Notes under the pieces: model-generated | Database searches by the model: none | What the model was told of the DNA's origin: nothing | What the model saw: only the letters and a program-made list of their open reading frames with translations | Shown here: piece after piece, positions 4,926-59,683 of the stretch | Layout: every line of letters begins with the position of its first letter | How positions within the stretch are numbered: position 1 is the stretch's first letter | Made by a program: the position numbers and the translations under genes | DNA from: Chloroflexus aggregans DSM 9485 | Lineage (GTDB): Bacteria > Chloroflexota > Chloroflexia > Chloroflexales > Chloroflexaceae | Assembly: GCF_000021945.1 (NCBI RefSeq) | Contig: NC_011831.1 | Span: 1,873,353-1,937,352 of the forward strand | Direction of reading: 5' to 3' | Length of the DNA stretch: 64,000 nt

Positions 4926-5224
4926 CCACCCATAGGGGCACGGCGATGCCGTAACCCCACGAAAGGCTCACGCAAAGACGCTAACGCAAAGACGCAAAGG
5001 GCGCAAAGGGCGCTAACGCAAAGACGCAAAGGGCGCAAAGGCGCAGAGGGGGTAACGCAAAGACGCAAAGGGCGAAAGGGCGCAAAGATGTTGACGCACA
5101 GCGCACCACCCATCGAGGCACGGCAATGCCGTACCCCCACAAAGGGCTCACGCAGAGGGCGTAAAGGGCACAAAGATGTTGACGCAACGAGCGCCACCCG
5201 TAGGGGCACGGCATGCCGTGCCCC
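4926..5224. repeat. Three copies of a GGGGCACGGC palindromic element
   Basis: Three related elements occur at about 4926-4961, 5105-5142 and 5190-5224. Each has a GCCACCC lead followed by a palindrome. The last contains a perfect 22-bp palindrome, GGGGCACGGCATGCCGTGCCCC split evenly at its centre (5203-5224); the others have 1-3 base changes. They bracket the CGCAAAG array. The elements resemble REP-like hairpins and could also end transcription of the genes converging on this gap. Confidence 0.75.
4971..5092. repeat. CGCAAAG-type short tandem repeat
   Basis: About a dozen imperfect copies of ACGCAAAGACGCAAAGGGCG-like units lie in tandem, built on a CGCAAAG core with 7- and 10-base spacing. 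Variation between copies is mostly AGA versus AGGGCG. Weak long reading frames cross it on both strands, but they are repeat artefacts. A related, inverted-arm copy lies at 45750-45845, so this is a dispersed family. Confidence 0.8.
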
Positions 5225-13254: not shown

Positions 13255-14169
13255 CTAGCACTCAAAGCCAAAATGCCGATACAGCCGCTGTCGCAGGCTC
13301 GCGTGTTTCTGCCAAAGCCACCAAAGGATGCGTAAGCCGGCATAATCGTGTGGAACGAGTGTTCGACCATAACGTCGTTGCAATAGCGCATGCTCGCGCT
13401 GCCAAACCGCCTGAAGAGTAGCGGTCTTCGCTTCCTCGTGGAGGCGAAAATCGCCCAGAGGCGGCCCCGGTATGCGGCGGCTCGGCCCGGCAGTGCTCAG
13501 CCGGATGAAGAGATCGCGATCCATACAGAAGCGTAGACTACGGTCAACCCCCCCCACGCGCTCATACACGCTACGTCGCCAAAAACATCCCTGCTGTGGC
13601 CAACGATGCACACCGAGTTGCGCAGTGAGCTTCCCGTTAGGTGGCAAGGCAAAGATCCGTGCCGTCACCCGCCCATCGGTATCGATGAAATTGACATCGC
13701 CGCTGGCGAAAGCCAGCCACGGACGTTTAGCAAAAAAACGTCCTACTCGCTGCAACGCTCCCGGCTGCAAACGGTCATCGGAATTGATCCACGCGAGAAT
13801 CTCGCCGGTAGCGCGGGCAAACCCATCGGCAAGTGCCGCCGACTGCCCACCATCGCGCTGCGATTGCCAGTAGCTCAACCACGGTGCGTAGCGTTGAATG
13901 ATCGCGACACTCCCGTCACGACTCCCGCCATCCATCACGATGTATTCAAGGTTTGGGTAGCCCTGCAACAACACCGACCGGATCGCCTCTTCGAGGTACT
14001 GGGCTTGCCGGTACGAGGGCGTCACAATGGTAATCCGGGGCCACGGGCGGCCATCGTCCAACAAGGCTGGCGCCGGTGGCGTTGCGATTGTCCACGGCCA
14101 ACCCTGTCGGTCAGGTGGTGGTGGCGGCAAATCGGTAATTGTCGGTATCGTCGAGGTTACAGTTGGCAT
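13255..14169 (-). CDS. Family 2 glycosyltransferase
   Basis: A 304-residue GT-A enzyme. After a Pro-rich leader of about 40 residues comes ITIVTPSYRQAQYLEEAIRS, then YIVMDGGSRDGS (about residue 78) and the metal-binding AWINSDDRLQPGA (about 128). It resembles cellular glycan GT2 enzymes of the WcaA type. It begins 3 bases after the GDP-fucose synthase gene, consistent with one transcript. Confidence 0.82.
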   Translation of the reverse strand: MPTVTSTIPTITDLPPPPPDRQGWPWTIATPPAPALLDDGRPWPRITIVTPSYRQAQYLEEAIRSVLLQGYPNLEYIVMDGGSRDGSVAIIQRYAPWLSYWQSQRDGGQSAALADGFARATGEILAWINSDDRLQPGALQRVGRFFAKRPWLAFASGDVNFIDTDGRVTARIFALPPNGKLTAQLGVHRWPQQGCFWRRSVYERVGGVDRSLRFCMDRDLFIRLSTAGPSRRIPGPPLGDFRLHEEAKTATLQAVWQREHALLQRRYGRTLVPHDYAGLRILWWLWQKHASLRQRLYRHFGFEC

Positions 14170-38742: not shown

Positions 38743-38759
38743 ACGCGCCGGCTTAAGCA

Positions 38760-39425
38760 GGAACACGGATGAAGACGGGTCCTAACGGATGATACGGATC
38801 GCGCCAATTTGCCTTATCAACCGCTCTCGAATCCGTCCCCATCCGTCTCATCCGTGTGCTCCCCTTCCCCCCGCCGTATTCGCACCGTTTTGGGGAGGAA
38901 CACGGATGGACACGAGGCCTCACGGACAGCACGGATCGCGCCAATTTGCCTTATCAACCGCTCTCGAATCCGTCCCCATCCGTCGCATCCGTGTGCTCCC
39001 CTTCCCCCCGCCGTGTTCGCACCGTTTCGGGGAGGAACACGGATGGACACGGGGCCTCACGGATGGCACGGATCGCGCCAATTTGCCTTATCAACCGCTC
39101 TCGAATCCGTCCCCATCCGTCTCATCCGTGTGCTCCCCTTCCCCCCGCCGTATTCGCACCGTTTCGGGGAGAAATACGGATGGACACGGGGCCTCACGGA
39201 TAGCACTGATCGCGCCAATTTGCCTTATCACCGCACGCGAATCCGTCCCCATCCGTCCCATCCGTGTGCTCCCCTTCCCCCCGCCGTGTTCGCACCATTT
39301 TAGGGAGGAACACGGATGGACACGGGGCCTCACGGATGGCACGGATCGCGCCAATTTGCCTTATCACCGCACGCGAATCCGTCCCCATCCGTCCCATCCG
39401 TCGCATCCGTGTGCTCCTCCCCTCA
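38760..39425. repeat. Five tandem copies of a 137-bp repeat
   Basis: GCCAATTTGCC recurs at 38803, 38940, 39077, 39214 and 39350, a spacing of 137, 137, 137 and 136. Each unit carries several CACGGATG and CATCCGTG words on both strands, so it can fold on itself. Units differ by a few base changes. Reading frames of 60-235 codons cross it on both strands but lack ribosome sites and run through the whole array, so they are rejected as genes. It separates aroB from the convergent lycopene cyclase gene. Confidence 0.88.
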
Positions 39426-49180: not shown

Positions 49181-50345
49181 CTTGCGCCACGCGATACCCG
49201 CTGCCTTCACTAGGAGACTACCGCGCCACCGCAGACGCAGATGTAGGTATGTTCGCTGCACAGGCAAACCACAAGCGGGTCGCGCCGCGCTACCCGGTGC
49301 ATTCGCCGGAGAACTACCGCGCCACCGCAGACGCATAGATGTCGGTATGCGCGCTGAACAGGCAAGCCGCAAGCGGGTCGCGCCGCGCTACCCGGTGCAT
49401 TCGCCAAGGGACTATCGCCCCACCTCAGACGCACTGATGTCGGTATGTGCGCTGAACAGGCAAGCCGCAAGCGGGTCGCACCGCGCTACCCGGTGCATTC
49501 GCCAAGGGACTATCGCCCCACCTCAGACGCACTGATGTCGGTATGTGCGCTAAAAAGGCAAGCCACAAACGGGTCGCACCGCGCTACCCGGTGCATTCGC
49601 CAAGGGACTATCGCCCCACCTCAGACGCACTGATGTCGGTATGTTCGCTGCACAGGCAAACCACAAGCGGGTCGCGCCGCGCTACCCGGTGCATTCGCCG
49701 GAGAACTACCGCGCCACCGCAGACGCACTGATGTCGGTATGCGCGCTGAACAGGCAAGCCACAAACGGGTCGCACCACGCTACCCGGTGCATTCGCCAAG
49801 GGACTATCGCCCCACCTCAGACGCACTGATGTCGGTATGTGCGCTGAACAGGCAAGCCACAAGCGGGTCGCACCGCGCTATTCCGTGCATTCGCCAAGGG
49901 ACTATCGCCCCACCTCAGACGCACTGATGTCGGTATGCGCGCTGAACAGGCAAGCCACAAACGGGTCGCACCGCGCTATTCCGTGCATTCGCCAAGGGAC
50001 TATCGCCCCACCTCAGACGCACTGATGTCGGTATGTGCGCTGAACAGGCAAGCCACAAACGGGTCGCGCCGCGCTCCCCGGTGCATTCGCCGGAGAACTA
50101 CCGCGCCACCGCAGACGCAGATGTAGGTATGTGCGCTGCACAGGCAAACCACAAGCGGGTTGCGCCGCGCTCCCCCATGCATTCGCCAAGGGACTATCGC
50201 CCCACCTCAGACGCACTGATGTCGGTATGTGCGCTAAAAAGGCAAGCCACAAACGGGTCGCACCGCGCTCCCCGGTGCATTCGCCAAGGGACTATCGCCC
50301 CACCTCAGACGCACTGATGTCGGTATGTGCGCTGAACAGGCGTGG
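49181..50345. repeat. 98-bp tandem repeat array, about 12 units
   Basis: GGTATG recurs at 49246, 49344, 49442, 49540, 49638, 49736, 49834, 49932, 50030, 50126, 50224 and 50322, a period of 98 with one 96. Two unit types differ: one has GGAGAACTACCGCGCCACCGC, the other CAAGGGACTATCGCCCCACCTC, and they are mixed along the array. A short stem GCACCG/CGGTGC is in most units. As 98 is not a multiple of 3, no repeat protein can be encoded. The array is conserved throughout, unlike CRISPR spacers. The rest of the gap to 50573 holds no clear gene. Confidence 0.9.
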
Positions 50346-50573: not shown

Positions 50574-51218
50574 TCACCGCGCAAACACACCATAATCAAG
50601 AGGATTTTGATTTATCCACCGGCCATCACGCCAAACCCAAACCTGATAATCCAAATGTGGCCCACTTGACATACCGGTCGAGCCGATATAGCCGATCAGA
50701 TCGCCGGGATTGACCCACTGACCATCACTCACCGCAAACCCACTAAGATGCGAGTAACCGGTACGGTAGAGTTCGTTCGTCACCCAGATATGATTTCCTG
50801 CCGGCCAGCTATCGTAGGTTAAGGTGACGCGCCCGGCGTGCGTTGCATACACCGGTTGGTTCTGCGTCCCGGCGGGATCGGCTTTACCATCGCCATCTCC
50901 ATCGAGCGCGAGATCGACAGCGCCCCAAACCTGTGCCGGGGCATGCGTACCCACACCATAGCCCTGCGTCATGACAGTATTAGCTACCCGTAATGGATTG
51001 CCACTCGGAATCATGGCAGCATCAAAGCCACGACCCTGCGGCTGTACCACGCCGACTAACGCTTCCTGCGCTGCGTTATTGATACTATTGACCTTCAGTG
51101 CCTGATCAACCGAACCACGCCAATTGCTCAGCACGGGTTGGTCAGGGTTGAACAAGCGCGGTAGAGCGCTGAAGACGATAAATAGAAGCGTGATAATAAT
51201 CGCAATACTTGGTCGCAT
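50574..51218 (-). CDS. Degenerate M23/LytM-like membrane-anchored protein
   Basis: A 214-residue protein with an N-terminal membrane helix (about 4-18), then an M23-type beta fold near residues 85-205: QGYGVGTHAPAQVWGAVDLAL, QPVYATHAGRVTLTY, TGYSHLSGF and SGPHLDYQVW. In M23 enzymes the zinc ligands are His and Asp in HxGxD and the second His of HxH. Here those positions read W-G-A-V-D and H-L-D, so two ligands are changed. It is likely a binding or activating LytM protein rather than an active endopeptidase. A Ca-binding-like DGDGDGK loop follows. Its own promoter is not identified. Confidence 0.75.
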   Translation of the reverse strand: MRPSIAIIITLLFIVFSALPRLFNPDQPVLSNWRGSVDQALKVNSINNAAQEALVGVVQPQGRGFDAAMIPSGNPLRVANTVMTQGYGVGTHAPAQVWGAVDLALDGDGDGKADPAGTQNQPVYATHAGRVTLTYDSWPAGNHIWVTNELYRTGYSHLSGFAVSDGQWVNPGDLIGYIGSTGMSSGPHLDYQVWVWRDGRWINQNPLDYGVFAR

Positions 51219-51444
51219 GGAGCTTAGAACCTAACAACACCACTGAACATTGGTATTCGTGATTGAAATGTCTTGAACTATCAAGCAATTGTCCATTGCC
51301 AACGTTCTTCAGTACGATGTTTTCAACGACATGTCTTGCCCACAAAAGATCGCGGCCCGCAGCTCATCACCGACCGCGAGAGGGACAGCAATTCTGAAAG
51401 AGCGAAGCCGAACGTCTCGGGATACATTCACCGCTATCAAAAGC

Positions 51445-51465
51445 AGCGCACCGAGGCTGCGCCAA
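51445..51465 (-). terminator. Weak hairpin terminator candidate
   Basis: On the minus strand GCGCA-GCCTCGG-TGCGC is followed by TGCTTTT. It lies just after the glucosaminidase-like gene. The stem is only 5 bp. Confidence 0.35.
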
Positions 51466-51482: not shown

Positions 51483-52730
51483 CTAGGGAATTTGACCACT
51501 CCGCCACCGATCGACCAGACCGGTCACAACCTGTATGTAGCCCTGCACGTCATTTTCAAACGACGGTGCATAAATCGGAATAATGTCAGCCACGGTTTGC
51601 AAACCACGCCAACGAAGATACTCGACATCGATAAGCCGATACCAATCGGCAATCCCGGTCTCCCAGTCGGGGTAATCACGAAACCGGCCATAGCACGTCG
51701 GATAACCGGCACAAATGATGTTACCGACATTGTGCGTTGTACTGCCATCGGGCTTCATACCGGCCCAATTCGGGTTCGTCCCGGCACCACTCTCATGAAT
51801 GAAGAAAGCTATCGCATAGGCTGGATCGATGTTGTACTCCAACCCAAGGCGGTACCAGATCTCACCGGTACCGGTTGCCGGCGAGCCATAGCTGCGCAGA
51901 ATTTCATCGATCTGCGCCGGAGTCAGACTTGGCGCCGAACGCAGTCGGTAATCACCTGGTGCCGGGATATTGGCGAGACTGACAGCATTCATCGGTACCG
52001 CTTGGCTAATATCCGCCGCGTACTGAAAGCTCAAGATAGGCGAACGCGATAAGGTCACTAACCAAACAACAATAATCACGAGGCTTACCAAGCCAATCCC
52101 TACCATCACCGGCCACTGATTGGCTTGAGCAGCCCACACCCATGGAGCAGAACGCTGCCTTACCGGCAGGAGCAGATCGGTTGCTTCGGGCAGAGGTGTG
52201 AAACCCACAGATGTCGCATCGGCTAATCGGTGGTTAGGTAGTCTCCGATCAACACCTACAGCAACAGTGTCTCGGGCTAATGTTACCGGCGTTCGTTCTG
52301 AAACGGCCACCAACCGTGCGGTTGGCGATGAACCATTGCTCCTCGCATAAGCACCAACAGCATGCCTTGCCGACGGAATTGGCCGCACTGTGTTGCCACT
52401 CGGCGCTGCCGAGAGCGTAGTGTGATCGGTGACAGACTGTTCCGGCGCTATGAGCCGGGCGTGTTTGGCAGTTTGATATGGGCGGTGATGAGCATCCGTC
52501 CGGCTCCGCTGCGCCCGTCGGTACGCCGATCTCACGTCCTCGGGCACACGCAACCCGATCGGCTCTTCAGGACGAGACGGCTGAACACGCTGTTCGAGCA
52601 AGGCATCGAGATCCGACGTCACTTCAGCAAGCGGTTGCCTTGGGGGACGCTGAACAGACTCCGTCTCTTCAATTGAAAAGAGCGGTTGGCCTAAGCGTCG
52701 ATTCCGGTTGCGGCGAGAGAAGGCACTCAC
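51483..52730 (-). CDS. Membrane-anchored glucosaminidase-like protein
   Basis: About 415 residues. Residues 1-210 are Arg/Pro/Ser-rich and probably disordered in the cytoplasm. A hydrophobic helix follows at about 212-235, and a C-terminal domain (about 270-415) resembles endo-beta-N-acetylglucosaminidase/lysozyme-like folds: AIAFFIHESGAGTNPNWAG has the candidate catalytic Glu, then HNVGNIICAGYPTCYGRFRDYPDW. It likely cleaves the peptidoglycan backbone outside the membrane. The GTG at 52730 overlaps the previous stop as GTGA and has AGGAG upstream. Confidence 0.7.
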   Translation of the reverse strand: MSAFSRRNRNRRLGQPLFSIEETESVQRPPRQPLAEVTSDLDALLEQRVQPSRPEEPIGLRVPEDVRSAYRRAQRSRTDAHHRPYQTAKHARLIAPEQSVTDHTTLSAAPSGNTVRPIPSARHAVGAYARSNGSSPTARLVAVSERTPVTLARDTVAVGVDRRLPNHRLADATSVGFTPLPEATDLLLPVRQRSAPWVWAAQANQWPVMVGIGLVSLVIIVVWLVTLSRSPILSFQYAADISQAVPMNAVSLANIPAPGDYRLRSAPSLTPAQIDEILRSYGSPATGTGEIWYRLGLEYNIDPAYAIAFFIHESGAGTNPNWAGMKPDGSTTHNVGNIICAGYPTCYGRFRDYPDWETGIADWYRLIDVEYLRWRGLQTVADIIPIYAPSFENDVQGYIQVVTGLVDRWRSGQIP

Positions 52731-53233
52731 TTGCTTCGCTCCTGCGCCAGCCGGTGCCACTCTTCGGGGTTAGGCAGGCGAAATGTACCATCACGGTTGA
52801 GATACACCACTTGCTCGTTGTGGATGGTGACGACGAGATCGGCCAAACCATCACTATCAGCGTCTGCTAAAGATAATACCACAGGGGTGAGATCTTCGTG
52901 TAACCCAAATAGGTATGGGCCTTGCCACGTCTGCACGTAGGTCGGGTCACCACCGGGTAACACGACGATCACGGTTTGTCGATCGAGATTCATGGCAATA
53001 AAGTGAGACGGACGCCCTGTCCGCTCGGCAGCTAAACCGGCATAGCCGGTGAGATGAGTGGTTCGTGGTCGCCCATAACGCCAGTCATCGAGCACGATGC
53101 GACCAAAGTCAATCACGACGCTCACGATGATGGCGATTGCTACAATGGCCGTCGCCGTCACGAGCCATCGAACGATGGCATTCCCTCCAACTGAACGTCG
53201 TGTCGGTGATAACACGCGACTGGTGGTTGCCAT
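52727..53233 (-). CDS. Small membrane protein with Asp-rich loop (SOS-box-controlled candidate)
   Basis: About 168 residues, family not recognised. One membrane helix is at about residues 20-42 (IVRWLVTATAIVAIAIIVSVV); the rest should lie outside. SLADADSDGLADLVVTIHN (about 125) looks like a calcium-binding FG-GAP-type loop. AAGGAGG precedes the ATG at 53233. It is first in an operon with the glucosaminidase-like gene (4-base overlap). The promoter lies about 100 bases upstream with two palindromes at 53322-53358. Confidence 0.65.
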   Translation of the reverse strand: MATTSRVLSPTRRSVGGNAIVRWLVTATAIVAIAIIVSVVIDFGRIVLDDWRYGRPRTTHLTGYAGLAAERTGRPSHFIAMNLDRQTVIVVLPGGDPTYVQTWQGPYLFGLHEDLTPVVLSLADADSDGLADLVVTIHNEQVVYLNRDGTFRLPNPEEWHRLAQERSK

Positions 53234-53321
53234 GCCTGCCCTCCTTCCGCATCGATGACGGTACCACTTGCTCCGCGCTTGCGTGAGCGCTATCGTGCCT
53301 ATCATTGTGTGCAGAATGATC

Positions 53322-53365
53322 GAACATTTGTTCTGATTATAATTTAGAACAATTGTTCTTGTCAA
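53322..53365 (-). promoter_or_regulatory. Near-consensus promoter with two GAAC-N4-GTTC (LexA-type) operators
   Basis: On the minus strand TTGACA (53360-53365) and TATAAT (53336-53341) are both perfect, with an 18-base spacer. GAACAATTGTTC (53347-53358, within a 14-bp palindrome) lies in the spacer. GAACATTTGTTC (53322-53333, plus-strand reading) lies at the likely start. Centres are 25 bases apart. GAAC-N4-GTTC is the LexA/DinR box of Gram-positive bacteria, also reported for Dehalococcoides. Strong repression with release after DNA damage is inferred. Confidence 0.75.
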
Positions 53366-53551: not shown

Positions 53552-55168
53552 ATGCGGTATTTACTCGATCAACGCTCATACGAAGAGATGTTGGCGCGTA
53601 AAAACCATCCACGCGATTGTTATGTGCGCAACCAGGAGTATTGCCACCATATCTACATCGATGGCGTGAAGTACACGGTTGCGCGAGCCGTCTATGCCTG
53701 TCTAAAAGAGGCACAGGCGAAAAACGATGTTGATGCGCTCTTGCATCTGCAAATGCACGTCACCGATCTCGAACGATTGATCGGGGAAGCGCGCGCTCGG
53801 GGCGAAAATGTTGCCACGTTACGACTCCTTGGCGACCCCCCACCATCGGACGAAGAGGCCCGTCCAACAATGAACAACTCGTTCTTACCGGCGCAACCGG
53901 TCACTATCGAAGAAACCGGCCTCAACCGTACCTTCCTGACCGAACAATTCCTTCGCATTCTCTACAACAAGGGTCGAGCGACCGGTATGGAATTGGCCAA
54001 TGCAATGGGGCTGTTTTACCGCGTGATCGAACCCATTATTGTTGACCTGCGGAATGTGGAGCAAATCGACATCGTCGGTCAACGTAGCTTTGGCGATATT
54101 AACTACGAATACATTTTGACACCGCGTGGACAAACGGCCGCGCAAGCGGCGATGGAGAAGGTGCAGTATACCGGTGTGTGCCCGGTCCCCCTCGATACGT
54201 GGATCGAGTCGGTGAAAGCGCAGACGGTGAAGAACGTCAAGGTTACTCGTCGTAATATCCGTGATGCTTTTGAAGGCCTCGTCATCGACGAGTCGATCTT
54301 GAATATGGTTGGCCCTGCCGTCAATTCCGGCTCATCGGTGATGCTCTTCGGATACCCCGGCAATGGGAAGACGACAATCGCCGAGCGGATCACCTATCTG
54401 ATGGGTGACGATATCTTCATTCCCTACGCTATCTACGCCGACGGGGCGATTATCAAGATGTACGATTCGGTGATTCACGAGCCGCCACGACGACCACTTC
54501 CTGAAGAGACTGAGTACGACAAACGCTGGATTCGGATTAGCCGACCCGTCGTGATCGTCGGTGGTGAATTGACGCTCGAGCAACTGAACCTTGTCTACAA
54601 CCCGACCTCAAAAGTCTATGAAGCACCGTTCCAGATGAAAGCCAACTGTGGCATTTTTCTGATCGATGACTTCGGGCGACAACAGGTGCGTGTCTTTGAT
54701 TTGCTGAATCGCTGGATCGTACCGCTGGAAAAGCGCTACGACTTTCTCAATACGGTTTCTGGGCAGAAGATTCAGATTCCGTTTGATCAACTGATCATGT
54801 TCAGCACCAATCTCGATCCCAAGGACCTCGGTGATGACGCCCTGCTGCGCCGGATCAAGTTTAAGATCGAAATCATCGATCCGACCGAAGACCAATGGCG
54901 CGAGATCTGGAAGATTATGTGTAAGGTGCGGAAGGTACCTTACGATGACCGTAGTATCGATTATCTGATCGCGAAGTGGTTTCGCCCCGATAACCGACCG
55001 TTTCGTATGTGTCAACCGCGTGATATTCTCGACCAGTTGATCGCGATCGCGCGTTACAATATGGAAACGCCTACCCTCAGCCCCGATCTGCTCGATGCAG
55101 CGTGCCTCTCGTACTTCCCCAGTAAGGAGAAGAAAGACTTCGGTGCCAAGGTGCGGTTGGATTTATAA
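53552..55168 (+). CDS. AAA family ATPase
   Basis: About 538 residues. Walker A FGYPGNGKTTIAERI (about 265-280), Walker B GIFLIDDFGRQQ (about 368), sensor 1 MFSTNLDPKD (about 415) and an Arg finger in LLRRIKF are present. The N-terminal 110 residues and a winged-helix-like segment (about 140-215) are less familiar. It resembles MoxR/RavA-like or pilus/gliding-associated ATPases but I cannot place it. GGGAG precedes the ATG at 53552; an in-frame GTG lies upstream at 53504. It is divergent from the SOS-box operon, so the two may share a region of control. Confidence 0.78.
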   Translation: MRYLLDQRSYEEMLARKNHPRDCYVRNQEYCHHIYIDGVKYTVARAVYACLKEAQAKNDVDALLHLQMHVTDLERLIGEARARGENVATLRLLGDPPPSDEEARPTMNNSFLPAQPVTIEETGLNRTFLTEQFLRILYNKGRATGMELANAMGLFYRVIEPIIVDLRNVEQIDIVGQRSFGDINYEYILTPRGQTAAQAAMEKVQYTGVCPVPLDTWIESVKAQTVKNVKVTRRNIRDAFEGLVIDESILNMVGPAVNSGSSVMLFGYPGNGKTTIAERITYLMGDDIFIPYAIYADGAIIKMYDSVIHEPPRRPLPEETEYDKRWIRISRPVVIVGGELTLEQLNLVYNPTSKVYEAPFQMKANCGIFLIDDFGRQQVRVFDLLNRWIVPLEKRYDFLNTVSGQKIQIPFDQLIMFSTNLDPKDLGDDALLRRIKFKIEIIDPTEDQWREIWKIMCKVRKVPYDDRSIDYLIAKWFRPDNRPFRMCQPRDILDQLIAIARYNMETPTLSPDLLDAACLSYFPSKEKKDFGAKVRLDL

Positions 55169-59177: not shown

Positions 59178-59683
59178 TTGTACGGGCGCTCCCCATGTAC
59201 GGGCACCCTCCCATGTACGGGCGACCCCACGGGTCGCCCCTACGCCCCCACCGCGCCCCCTATGTACGGGCCACCCGGCAGCACGGGCGACCCGTCGGGT
59301 CGCCCCTACGTCCCACCGCGCCCCCATATGTACGGGCGACCCCAATGTACGGGCGACCCGGCGGGTCGCCCCTACGTCCCACCGCGCCCCCATATGTACG
59401 GGTGACCCGGCGGGTCGCCCCTACGTCCCACCGCGCCCCCATATGTACGGGTGACCCGGCGGGTCGCCCCTACGTCCCACCGCGCCCCCATATGTACGGG
59501 TGACCCGGCGGGTCGCCCCTACGTCCCACCGCGCCCCCATATGTACGGGCGACCCGGCGGGTCGCCCCTACGTCCTCACCGCGCCCCCATATGTACGGGC
59601 GACCCCAATGTACGGGCGACCCGGCGGGTCGCCCCTACGTCCCACCGCGCCCCCCATGTACGCGCGACCCGGCGGGTCGCCCC
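59178..59683. repeat. 49-bp tandem repeats with GGGCGACCC-GGGTCGCCC palindromes
   Basis: A unit of about 49 bp (ATATGTACGGGTGACCCGGCGGGTCGCCCCTACGT... then CCCACCGCGCCCCC) is repeated about 8-10 times; ATATGTACGGG recurs at 59392, 59441, 59490 and 59539. Each unit can form a strong hairpin from GGGCGACCC and GGGTCGCCC. The first units are more diverged. It fills the gap between sdhB and the convergent glycosyltransferase gene and ends at that gene's stop codon. Long open frames across it are artefacts. Confidence 0.88.

Follow-up and report, generated by a model that had tools for sequence, protein, structure and literature searches.

A conserved Chloroflexales operon with LexA-type boxes as a probable SOS-regulated system of cell wall remodelling

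An operon on the minus strand of the window (the whole 64-kb stretch of Chloroflexus DNA analysed here) is read as a LexA-repressed SOS operon that would remodel the cell wall and serve as an envelope or division checkpoint; the probability of this reading is put at roughly 0.62. The operon encodes a small membrane protein with a propeller-like outer domain (gene 1), a GH73-type glucosaminidase (gene 2) and an M23/LytM-like protein (gene 3), and what exceeds chance is that a single perfect promoter bears two boxes and that a box recurs 5′ of the same gene in related genomes. The role of the products is judged somewhat more likely than not to be SOS-timed remodelling of peptidoglycan with a checkpoint-like effect.

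Promoter and operator boxes

The promoter consists of a -35 hexamer TTGACA (53360..53365, minus strand) and a -10 hexamer TATAAT (53336..53341, minus strand) separated by 18 nt; the minus-strand stretch 53365..53336, TTGACAAGAACAATTGTTCTAAATTATAAT, has the form TTGACA-N18-TATAAT and agrees with the consensus at 12/12 positions. A perfect TTGACA-N15-19-TATAAT occurs a single time in the 64-kb window, against a shuffle mean of 0.01. LexA-type box 1, GAACAATTGTTC (53347..53358, minus), occupies most of the 18-nt spacer, while box 2, GAACAAATGTTC (53322..53333, minus; GAACATTTGTTC on the plus strand), starts 2 nt past the -10 and therefore spans the expected transcription start. Further downstream, an RBS-like GGAGGG (53239..53244, minus) lies 5 nt 5′ of the gene 1 ATG; GGAG is found within 20 nt 5′ of the gene 1 start in 13/16 relatives, as counted by eye. 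An earlier, sequence-only reading had placed two LexA-type palindromes on a near-perfect promoter at 53322-53365; its coordinates and sequences are correct on re-reading of the minus strand, the promoter matches at all consensus positions, and the boxes do lie in the spacer and over the start.

GAAC-N4-GTTC is the LexA/DinR box of Gram-positive bacteria; it is also said to occur in Dehalococcoides, the present host however being Chloroflexus. Taken alone the motif is weak evidence, since the window holds three GAACN4GTTC sites against 1.03 expected (13 of 100 shuffles reach three; the site besides the two promoter boxes is at 13353) and the genome, a single contig of 4,684,931 bases, holds 48 against 54 for the reversed control. 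With the window's three sites excluded and a crude ORF rule applied, 8/45 exact sites fall outside ORFs; on these counts the exact palindrome was rejected as a genome-wide marker.

A further comparison is with the lexA and recA promoters of the same genome. One LexA is found by a PF01726 profile search; its translation of 216 aa retains the segments ITAGSPLPDP, which we take to be the cleavage-site region, and GQSMIDALIDDGD and VTLKKF, whose roles are likewise presumed. The lexA promoter reads TTGACA-AAACAAGTGTTC-GGAAGT-TATAAT, an 18-nt spacer with an internal box like that of the operon promoter, and an additional GAACATCCGTAC lies immediately upstream. Across the genus AAACAAGTGTTC is identical in 7/7 Chloroflexus lexA promoters (this genome and six genus-mates, loci L029-L035, G007 not being among them), and TTGACAAAACAAGTGTTC with TATAAT after an 18-nt spacer is likewise present in 7/7; boxes in the lexA promoters of other genera are variable. 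The recA promoter carries the degenerate boxes GCACAAGTGTAC and GCACATATGTAC; by eye, GTACACTTGTGC lies within the spacer of TTGCAA-N17-TATTAT and GCACATATGTAC directly behind the -10, which is the two-box layout of the operon promoter. Box 1 holds, also by eye, the position of AAACAAGTGTTC in the lexA promoter and of GTACACTTGTGC in the recA promoter, and the operator of the operon is of the type and placement of the lexA and recA operators, with placement judged by eye and those boxes being degenerate.

The exact GAACN4GTTC is absent from the lexA and recA promoters of this genome, which carry degenerate forms only. The sequence-only reading had proposed LexA control, and had made it depend on the motif being present at lexA and recA; boxes of the same type do stand at the same places, so the outcome favours LexA, with the qualification that the exact palindrome is missing from both promoters. 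The genome search for GAACN4GTTC that it had suggested does yield an exact box near recN, lexA and recA again giving degenerate boxes only. Judged by the likeness of these promoters, control of the operon by LexA is considered very likely.

A degenerate motif, RMACAWNYGTWC, was derived from the lexA, recA and operon sites and counted genome-wide; it has 68 matches, those sites included and fully palindromic sites scored on both strands, against 24 for the reversed control. Of 51 degenerate sites looked at, only 10 are not inside an ORF of 110 aa or more, so matches of either the exact or the degenerate pattern are probably mostly background. The sites outside ORFs include a near box 41 nt 5′ of mutL and another 70 nt 5′ of a DNA polymerase III alpha gene. 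Elsewhere, at position 1501 of locus L188, GAACAATTGTTC (the same sequence as box 1) lies 24 nt 5′ of the gene for an N6_N4 DNA methyltransferase, which to judge by this box may be another LexA target. At position 1501 of locus L223 a GCACATATGTTC-type box lies behind a TTGACA-containing promoter-like stretch, 62 nt 5′ of a 231-aa frame for which neither Pfam nor NCBIfam gives a match at E 0.001.

Proteins of the operon

Gene 1 (52727..53233, minus strand) encodes a 168-aa protein whose outer domain is FG-GAP-like and two-blade propeller-like according to Pfam and a structure model. Hydropathy gives a single hydrophobic segment at residues ~17-51, by which the product is classed as a single-pass membrane protein; its regulation through LexA boxes is suggested by the boxes themselves. 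The N-terminus displays a conserved MA[VT]TSRxL-type motif, and this segment suggests a cytosolic partner. The best Pfam match is FG-GAP_3 (27.3 bits against a cut-off of 26.9), other matches being weaker; the profile of gene 1 has no match in the PDB at E ≤ 1, and none was found in PHROGs. The AlphaFold model (pLDDT 80.3) features a long N-terminal helix and eight strands. Foldseek returned no match to it at E ≤ 0.001, its rows including RSL, a two-blade lectin, at a best E of 0.089 and PVL, a lectin for GlcNAc, at E 0.38; VIA-align gave a Z of 9.1 for an integrin-alpha propeller (89 aligned, 2.7 Å), 7.9 for a periplasmic lysozyme inhibitor and about 7.5 for RSL. As the VIA-align guidance holds that a Z below 8 may reflect merely a common arrangement, these middling scores lead to the outer part of gene 1 being read as a two-blade propeller-like domain to which no function is assigned. 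The two-blade unit of the Ralstonia lectin RSL and of integrin-alpha FG-GAP propellers does resemble this domain; however, the Foldseek E values are 0.089 or worse and the Z values middling, and the likeness implies no shared function.

Gene 2 (51483..52760, minus strand) starts within the end of gene 1 and encodes a 425-aa protein with an N-terminal tail of about 210 residues, a hydrophobic segment at ~213-246 and a C-terminal domain of catalytic type. The match to the GH73 family PF01832 is 24.3 bits (E 5.3e-05), or 26.8 bits in a second search, under the Pfam cut-off of 30.2, and one further stretch of the genome matches PF01832, likewise under the cut-off; assignment to the family is therefore based on the motif together with a weak match in the PDB. 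Glu323, in an HES motif, is invariant in 18/18 aligned sequences (21 were read) and aligns with a Glu of the solved glucosaminidase 5wqw (E 0.002, a weak match). Among PHROGs there is one weak endolysin match (E 0.00082). The predicted GH73-type domain would be expected to have hydrolase activity.

Gene 3 (50574..51218, minus strand) encodes an M23/LytM-like protein of 214 aa that carries a hydrophobic segment in its N-terminal part; its match to PF01551 scores 68.4 bits, above the cut-off of 28.7, and the genome has nine M23 matches, this one included. The sequence-only reading had the first two genes right and missed this third one. In an alignment of 16 sequences the zinc ligands of the canonical motifs HxxxD and HxH are not kept: W98 stands at the expected position of the first His ligand in 16/16 (placed by eye) and the last His ligand is, by alignment, replaced by D190 in 13/16, with His in 3/16, while D102, H157 and H188 are invariant in 16/16. 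The product may be an inactive LytM-type activator, or may bind metal in another way, for instance via the invariant H92. Its PHROGs matches include several endolysins, and its matches to the NlpD and ActS models are weak and far under the cut-off. A hydrophobic anchor segment is seen by hydropathy in all three operon proteins, none of which has a match in PADLOC.

The distance between genes 2 and 3 is 264 nt in the window and 56-487 nt in five Chloroflexus relatives; in another, G004 (L073), the DNA read past gene 2 shows no M23-like match. A terminator-like hairpin lies between the two genes in the window (51444..51464, minus strand), but is not above chance level, the region having three such hairpins against a shuffle mean of 2.3. 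Outside Chloroflexus, genes 2 and 3 overlap or adjoin in 12/14 neighbourhoods, at distances of -56 to +6 nt when counted from the earliest possible start. At L082 they are fused into one 566-aa frame, the N-terminal tail of which contains a stretch of unknown bases; at L084 no match to gene 3 was found in the neighbourhood read.

Conservation across the order

Gene 2 was searched for in 25 relatives in addition to this genome and was matched in 25/26; 20 neighbourhoods were read besides the window, six from Chloroflexus relatives and 14 from other genera. Gene 1 precedes gene 2 in the window and in 17/20 of these neighbourhoods; at L080 the contig ends before the position of gene 1, and at L082 and L084 gene 2 is not preceded by gene 1.

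The 300 nt upstream of gene 1 were examined in the window and 16 relatives. An exact box is present in 16/17 genomes (18 sites), a count in which kinship among the genomes is ignored; shuffles of the same regions gave a mean of 0.07 and a maximum of 2 in 300 rounds, and the control palindromes CTTGN4CAAG and GTTCN4GAAC were found in 0/17. The exception, L076, has GAACATTAGTTT and GCACATAAGTTC. L079, where the automatic call gave no start, was left out of this count; exact boxes lie there at two places, 203 and 225 nt 5′ of the gene 1 start at 5014. In the nine genomes of other genera that have an exact box, it sits, by eye, within the promoter spacer, L075 having another behind it; the six Chloroflexus relatives have a single exact box right after the -10, and the window has both positions.

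A larger collection comprises at least 80 loci with gene 1 relatives, several of them from the same genomes as the count of 17; among those listed, 37 are linked to GH73, 34 are unlinked and nine are truncated, with starts partly estimated. Among the matches listed, GH73-linked loci carry an exact box in 30/37 and an exact or near box in 34/37 (0 and 3 for the reversed motif); the other seven have no exact box, and three of these no near box either. Unlinked loci among the matches listed have an exact box in 8/34 and an exact or near box in 20/34 (reversed motif, 0 and 4), and truncated loci 4/9 and 7/9 (reversed motif, 0 and 0). An M23-like match follows GH73 in 35/37 of the linked loci among the matches listed, and is missing at L092 and L165.

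Relatives of gene 1 occur in 71/400 genomes of the phylum. All 40 of the 40 order members listed have homologues, with two matches in 32, three in two and one in six; since the listed genomes without a match, beyond which a further 309 fall outside the listing, begin with those of the same class, presumably every member of the order has one. Outside the order, relatives were found in 1/14 listed genomes of the same class and, further out, in 30 genomes, 29 of which belong to family f24 and have from 3 to at least 8 matches each. The f24 copies bear N-terminal extensions, so that the DNA read may not be their true upstream region; in the eight loci from six genomes no box was found near the start, though L297 of this family has a site at -433 that is exact and another at -360 that is a near match. 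On presence and similarity, the module is taken to be widespread in the Chloroflexales and probably ancestral to the order. Two contigs titled Candidatus Gracilibacteria (L094 and L129) contain Chloroflexales-like homologues of gene 1 and are probably misbinned.

A second homologue of gene 1 lies in the same genome at G000:C1:4127739 (L189 1501-2065), with GAACTTTTGTTC 37 nt 5′ of its ATG. It is divergent from recN, the exact box being in the shared intergenic region; the recN call covers 438 of 563 positions of TIGR00634 over the 446 residues read. The exact box at this copy is present in 7/7 Chloroflexus genomes read, and recN is found within the 1.5 kb read in five of six Chloroflexus relatives. 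Three further copies from other genera of the family (L285-L287) have no box of the listed kinds; L289 of family f4 has a near box only, and the more distant copies L288 and L290 have an exact one.

Relation to known SOS and wall systems

SOS checkpoints of division or the envelope are known in several bacterial groups, with proteins that differ between groups. YneA of Bacillus, SosA of Staphylococcus and DivS of Corynebacterium are small SOS-induced proteins that act on division, and their membrane topology resembles that of gene 1; gene 1 differs from them in its two-blade propeller-like domain and in having no LysM match, and a likeness in division inhibition is not implied. EnvC and NlpD are degenerate LytM factors with an M23 fold and missing zinc ligands. 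Gene 3 is like them in this respect and in being encoded with a wall hydrolase that it possibly activates; however, their partner is an amidase and that of gene 3 a glucosaminidase, and gene 3 keeps two histidines of catalytic type. ChiZ and gene 2 are alike as damage-regulated wall hydrolases (gene 2 being a predicted hydrolase and, to judge by the boxes, probably so regulated) with an outer part and a tail or disordered segment, which in ChiZ is presumably located in the cytoplasm; compared by description only, ChiZ bears a LysM domain whereas the operon has a GH73-type domain and co-encoded proteins.

ChiZ (Rv2719c) of Mycobacterium is described as a damage-induced cell wall hydrolase and a negative regulator of division (PMC3989709), and as having a disordered segment (PMC7355643); YneA is described as having an extracellular LysM (PMC3989709). 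For the operon proteins Pfam gives neither a LysM nor a SulA match, and SulA was not found in the genome; as far as these searches reach, they bear out the suggestion of the sequence-only reading that the proteins are unrelated to YneA and ChiZ. Going by these matches, the operon is not a member of the LysM-bearing YneA/ChiZ kind, and the best reading by analogy is that it would work like the YneA and ChiZ checkpoints with unrelated proteins. LysM proteins encoded elsewhere in the genome (three frames, four places) were considered as hidden counterparts of YneA or ChiZ and rejected: two of the frames have no listed exact or degenerate site within 1 kb, and the third, of 470 aa and also matching M23, has one degenerate site (2629308) inside its own frame and not upstream.

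Proposed mechanism and alternatives

LexA dimers would bind both boxes, covering the -35/-10 spacer and the start, and would thereby block the perfect-consensus promoter; upon damage, RecA-triggered self-cleavage of LexA would let this promoter fire strongly. The products would sit in the cytoplasmic membrane and face the wall: gene 1 as a small protein, bitopic and bearing the two-blade propeller-like domain, gene 2 as a GH73-type glucosaminidase whose long tail is cytoplasmic, and gene 3, usually present, as an M23/LytM-like protein that has an altered zinc site and may scaffold or activate instead of cutting. Most likely the three proteins would jointly modify septal or lateral peptidoglycan during DNA repair as an SOS envelope or division checkpoint. 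We infer LexA occupancy, induction by damage, membrane topology, hydrolase activity and an action at the septum or role in division from the sequence features described above. A more specific and tentative form of the proposal is a new SOS envelope system of the Chloroflexales in which a protein of the MAVTSREL family, a new family of membrane-anchored two-blade propellers that mostly occurs twice per genome and in Chloroflexus has LexA-type boxes at each copy, would steer the co-encoded glucosaminidase and the LytM-like activator to the shared septum, so that damage halts division or cuts the multicellular filament at damaged cells.

The operon could instead serve wall maintenance, elongating damaged cells needing extra peptidoglycan turnover for which the glucosaminidase and its helpers are induced by SOS and division is not blocked. 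Turnover fits the GH73-type domain with its conserved glutamate and the anchor segments of all three proteins, as well as the lack of LysM and SulA matches in the operon and of SulA in the genome. This lack however says little, because SOS division inhibitors are described as differing between bacterial groups and DivS as unrelated to YneA (PMC3989709), and the conserved MA[VT]TSRxL segment of gene 1, with the cytosolic partner that it suggests, speaks against simple maintenance; the explanation is considered rather doubtful. The module also recurs across an order of filamentous bacteria, and the glucosaminidase might open the shared septal wall under SOS to release damaged cells or break the filament. 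Three Chloroflexales species are described from tomography as multicellular filaments, and neighbouring cells of C. aggregans and of 'Ca. Viridilinea mediisalina' are described as having in common a septum formed by a peptidoglycan-like layer (PMC7332563); this shared septum makes filament splitting a live alternative, but relatives of gene 1 are also present beyond the order, most of them in family f24, and splitting is judged unlikely.

A programmed lysis cassette or prophage remnant, the hydrolases of which would kill the cell after DNA damage, is suggested by the resemblance of wall hydrolases under LexA-type control to lysis genes and by the endolysin matches in PHROGs (several for the M23-like protein, the one weak match for gene 2) in a phage-gene scan that covered four proteins by Pfam and three by PHROGs. 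Gene 1 however has no counterpart in that collection, the proteins carry N-terminal tails and membrane anchors, the M23 zinc ligands are altered, and recurrence throughout the order (gene 1 in every member listed) speaks against a prophage-type lysis gene, which leaves this explanation quite improbable. Least probable is that the boxes are sites of another regulator or chance palindromes. The exact motif is not enriched in the genome, three sites in the window compare with about one expected, and genomic matches of either pattern are mostly inside ORFs; against this stand the same type of box at the lexA and recA promoters, the near boxes at mutL and the DNA polymerase III alpha gene, and the recurrence upstream of gene 1 in all genomes counted except one, where the shuffles reached two at most. 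The preferred reading remains that of a LexA-repressed operon for remodelling of the wall.

Significance and neighbouring elements

If this reading is true, DNA damage is tied to wall remodelling in multicellular filaments, and the operon may represent an undescribed way to adjust the wall upon DNA damage in an order of filamentous bacteria. Among the open-licence PMC papers listed none was found on LexA control of this operon or on an SOS division or envelope checkpoint for Chloroflexota, and none on LexA in Chloroflexus by title or abstract. RegPrecise 3.0 is described as having, among its collections, one for Chloroflexi with 5 genomes and one for LexA (PMC3840689), and may already contain a prediction for this operon. 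As an order-wide operon with LexA-type boxes it is a named candidate for expression tests; furthermore, the RMACAWNYGTWC-like motif and a short gene list would be useful in reconstructing the SOS regulon of Chloroflexus, for which the candidates are lexA, recA, mutL, the DNA polymerase III alpha gene and the gene 1 family with one copy by recN.

A divergent AAA-type ATPase gene (53552-55168, plus strand) is found beside the operon, ~94-95% identical, in 5/6 Chloroflexus relatives and in 0/14 neighbourhoods of other genera, and was rejected as a part of the module; its product matches the IetA/IteA anti-phage ATPase models weakly, with nothing firm. The window also contains three tandem arrays: one with a 98-bp unit in 11.8 copies shortly 3′ of the M23-like gene (49190-50341), one of 137 bp × 4.7 (38759-39401), and one with units of 49/66 bp (59179-59670).
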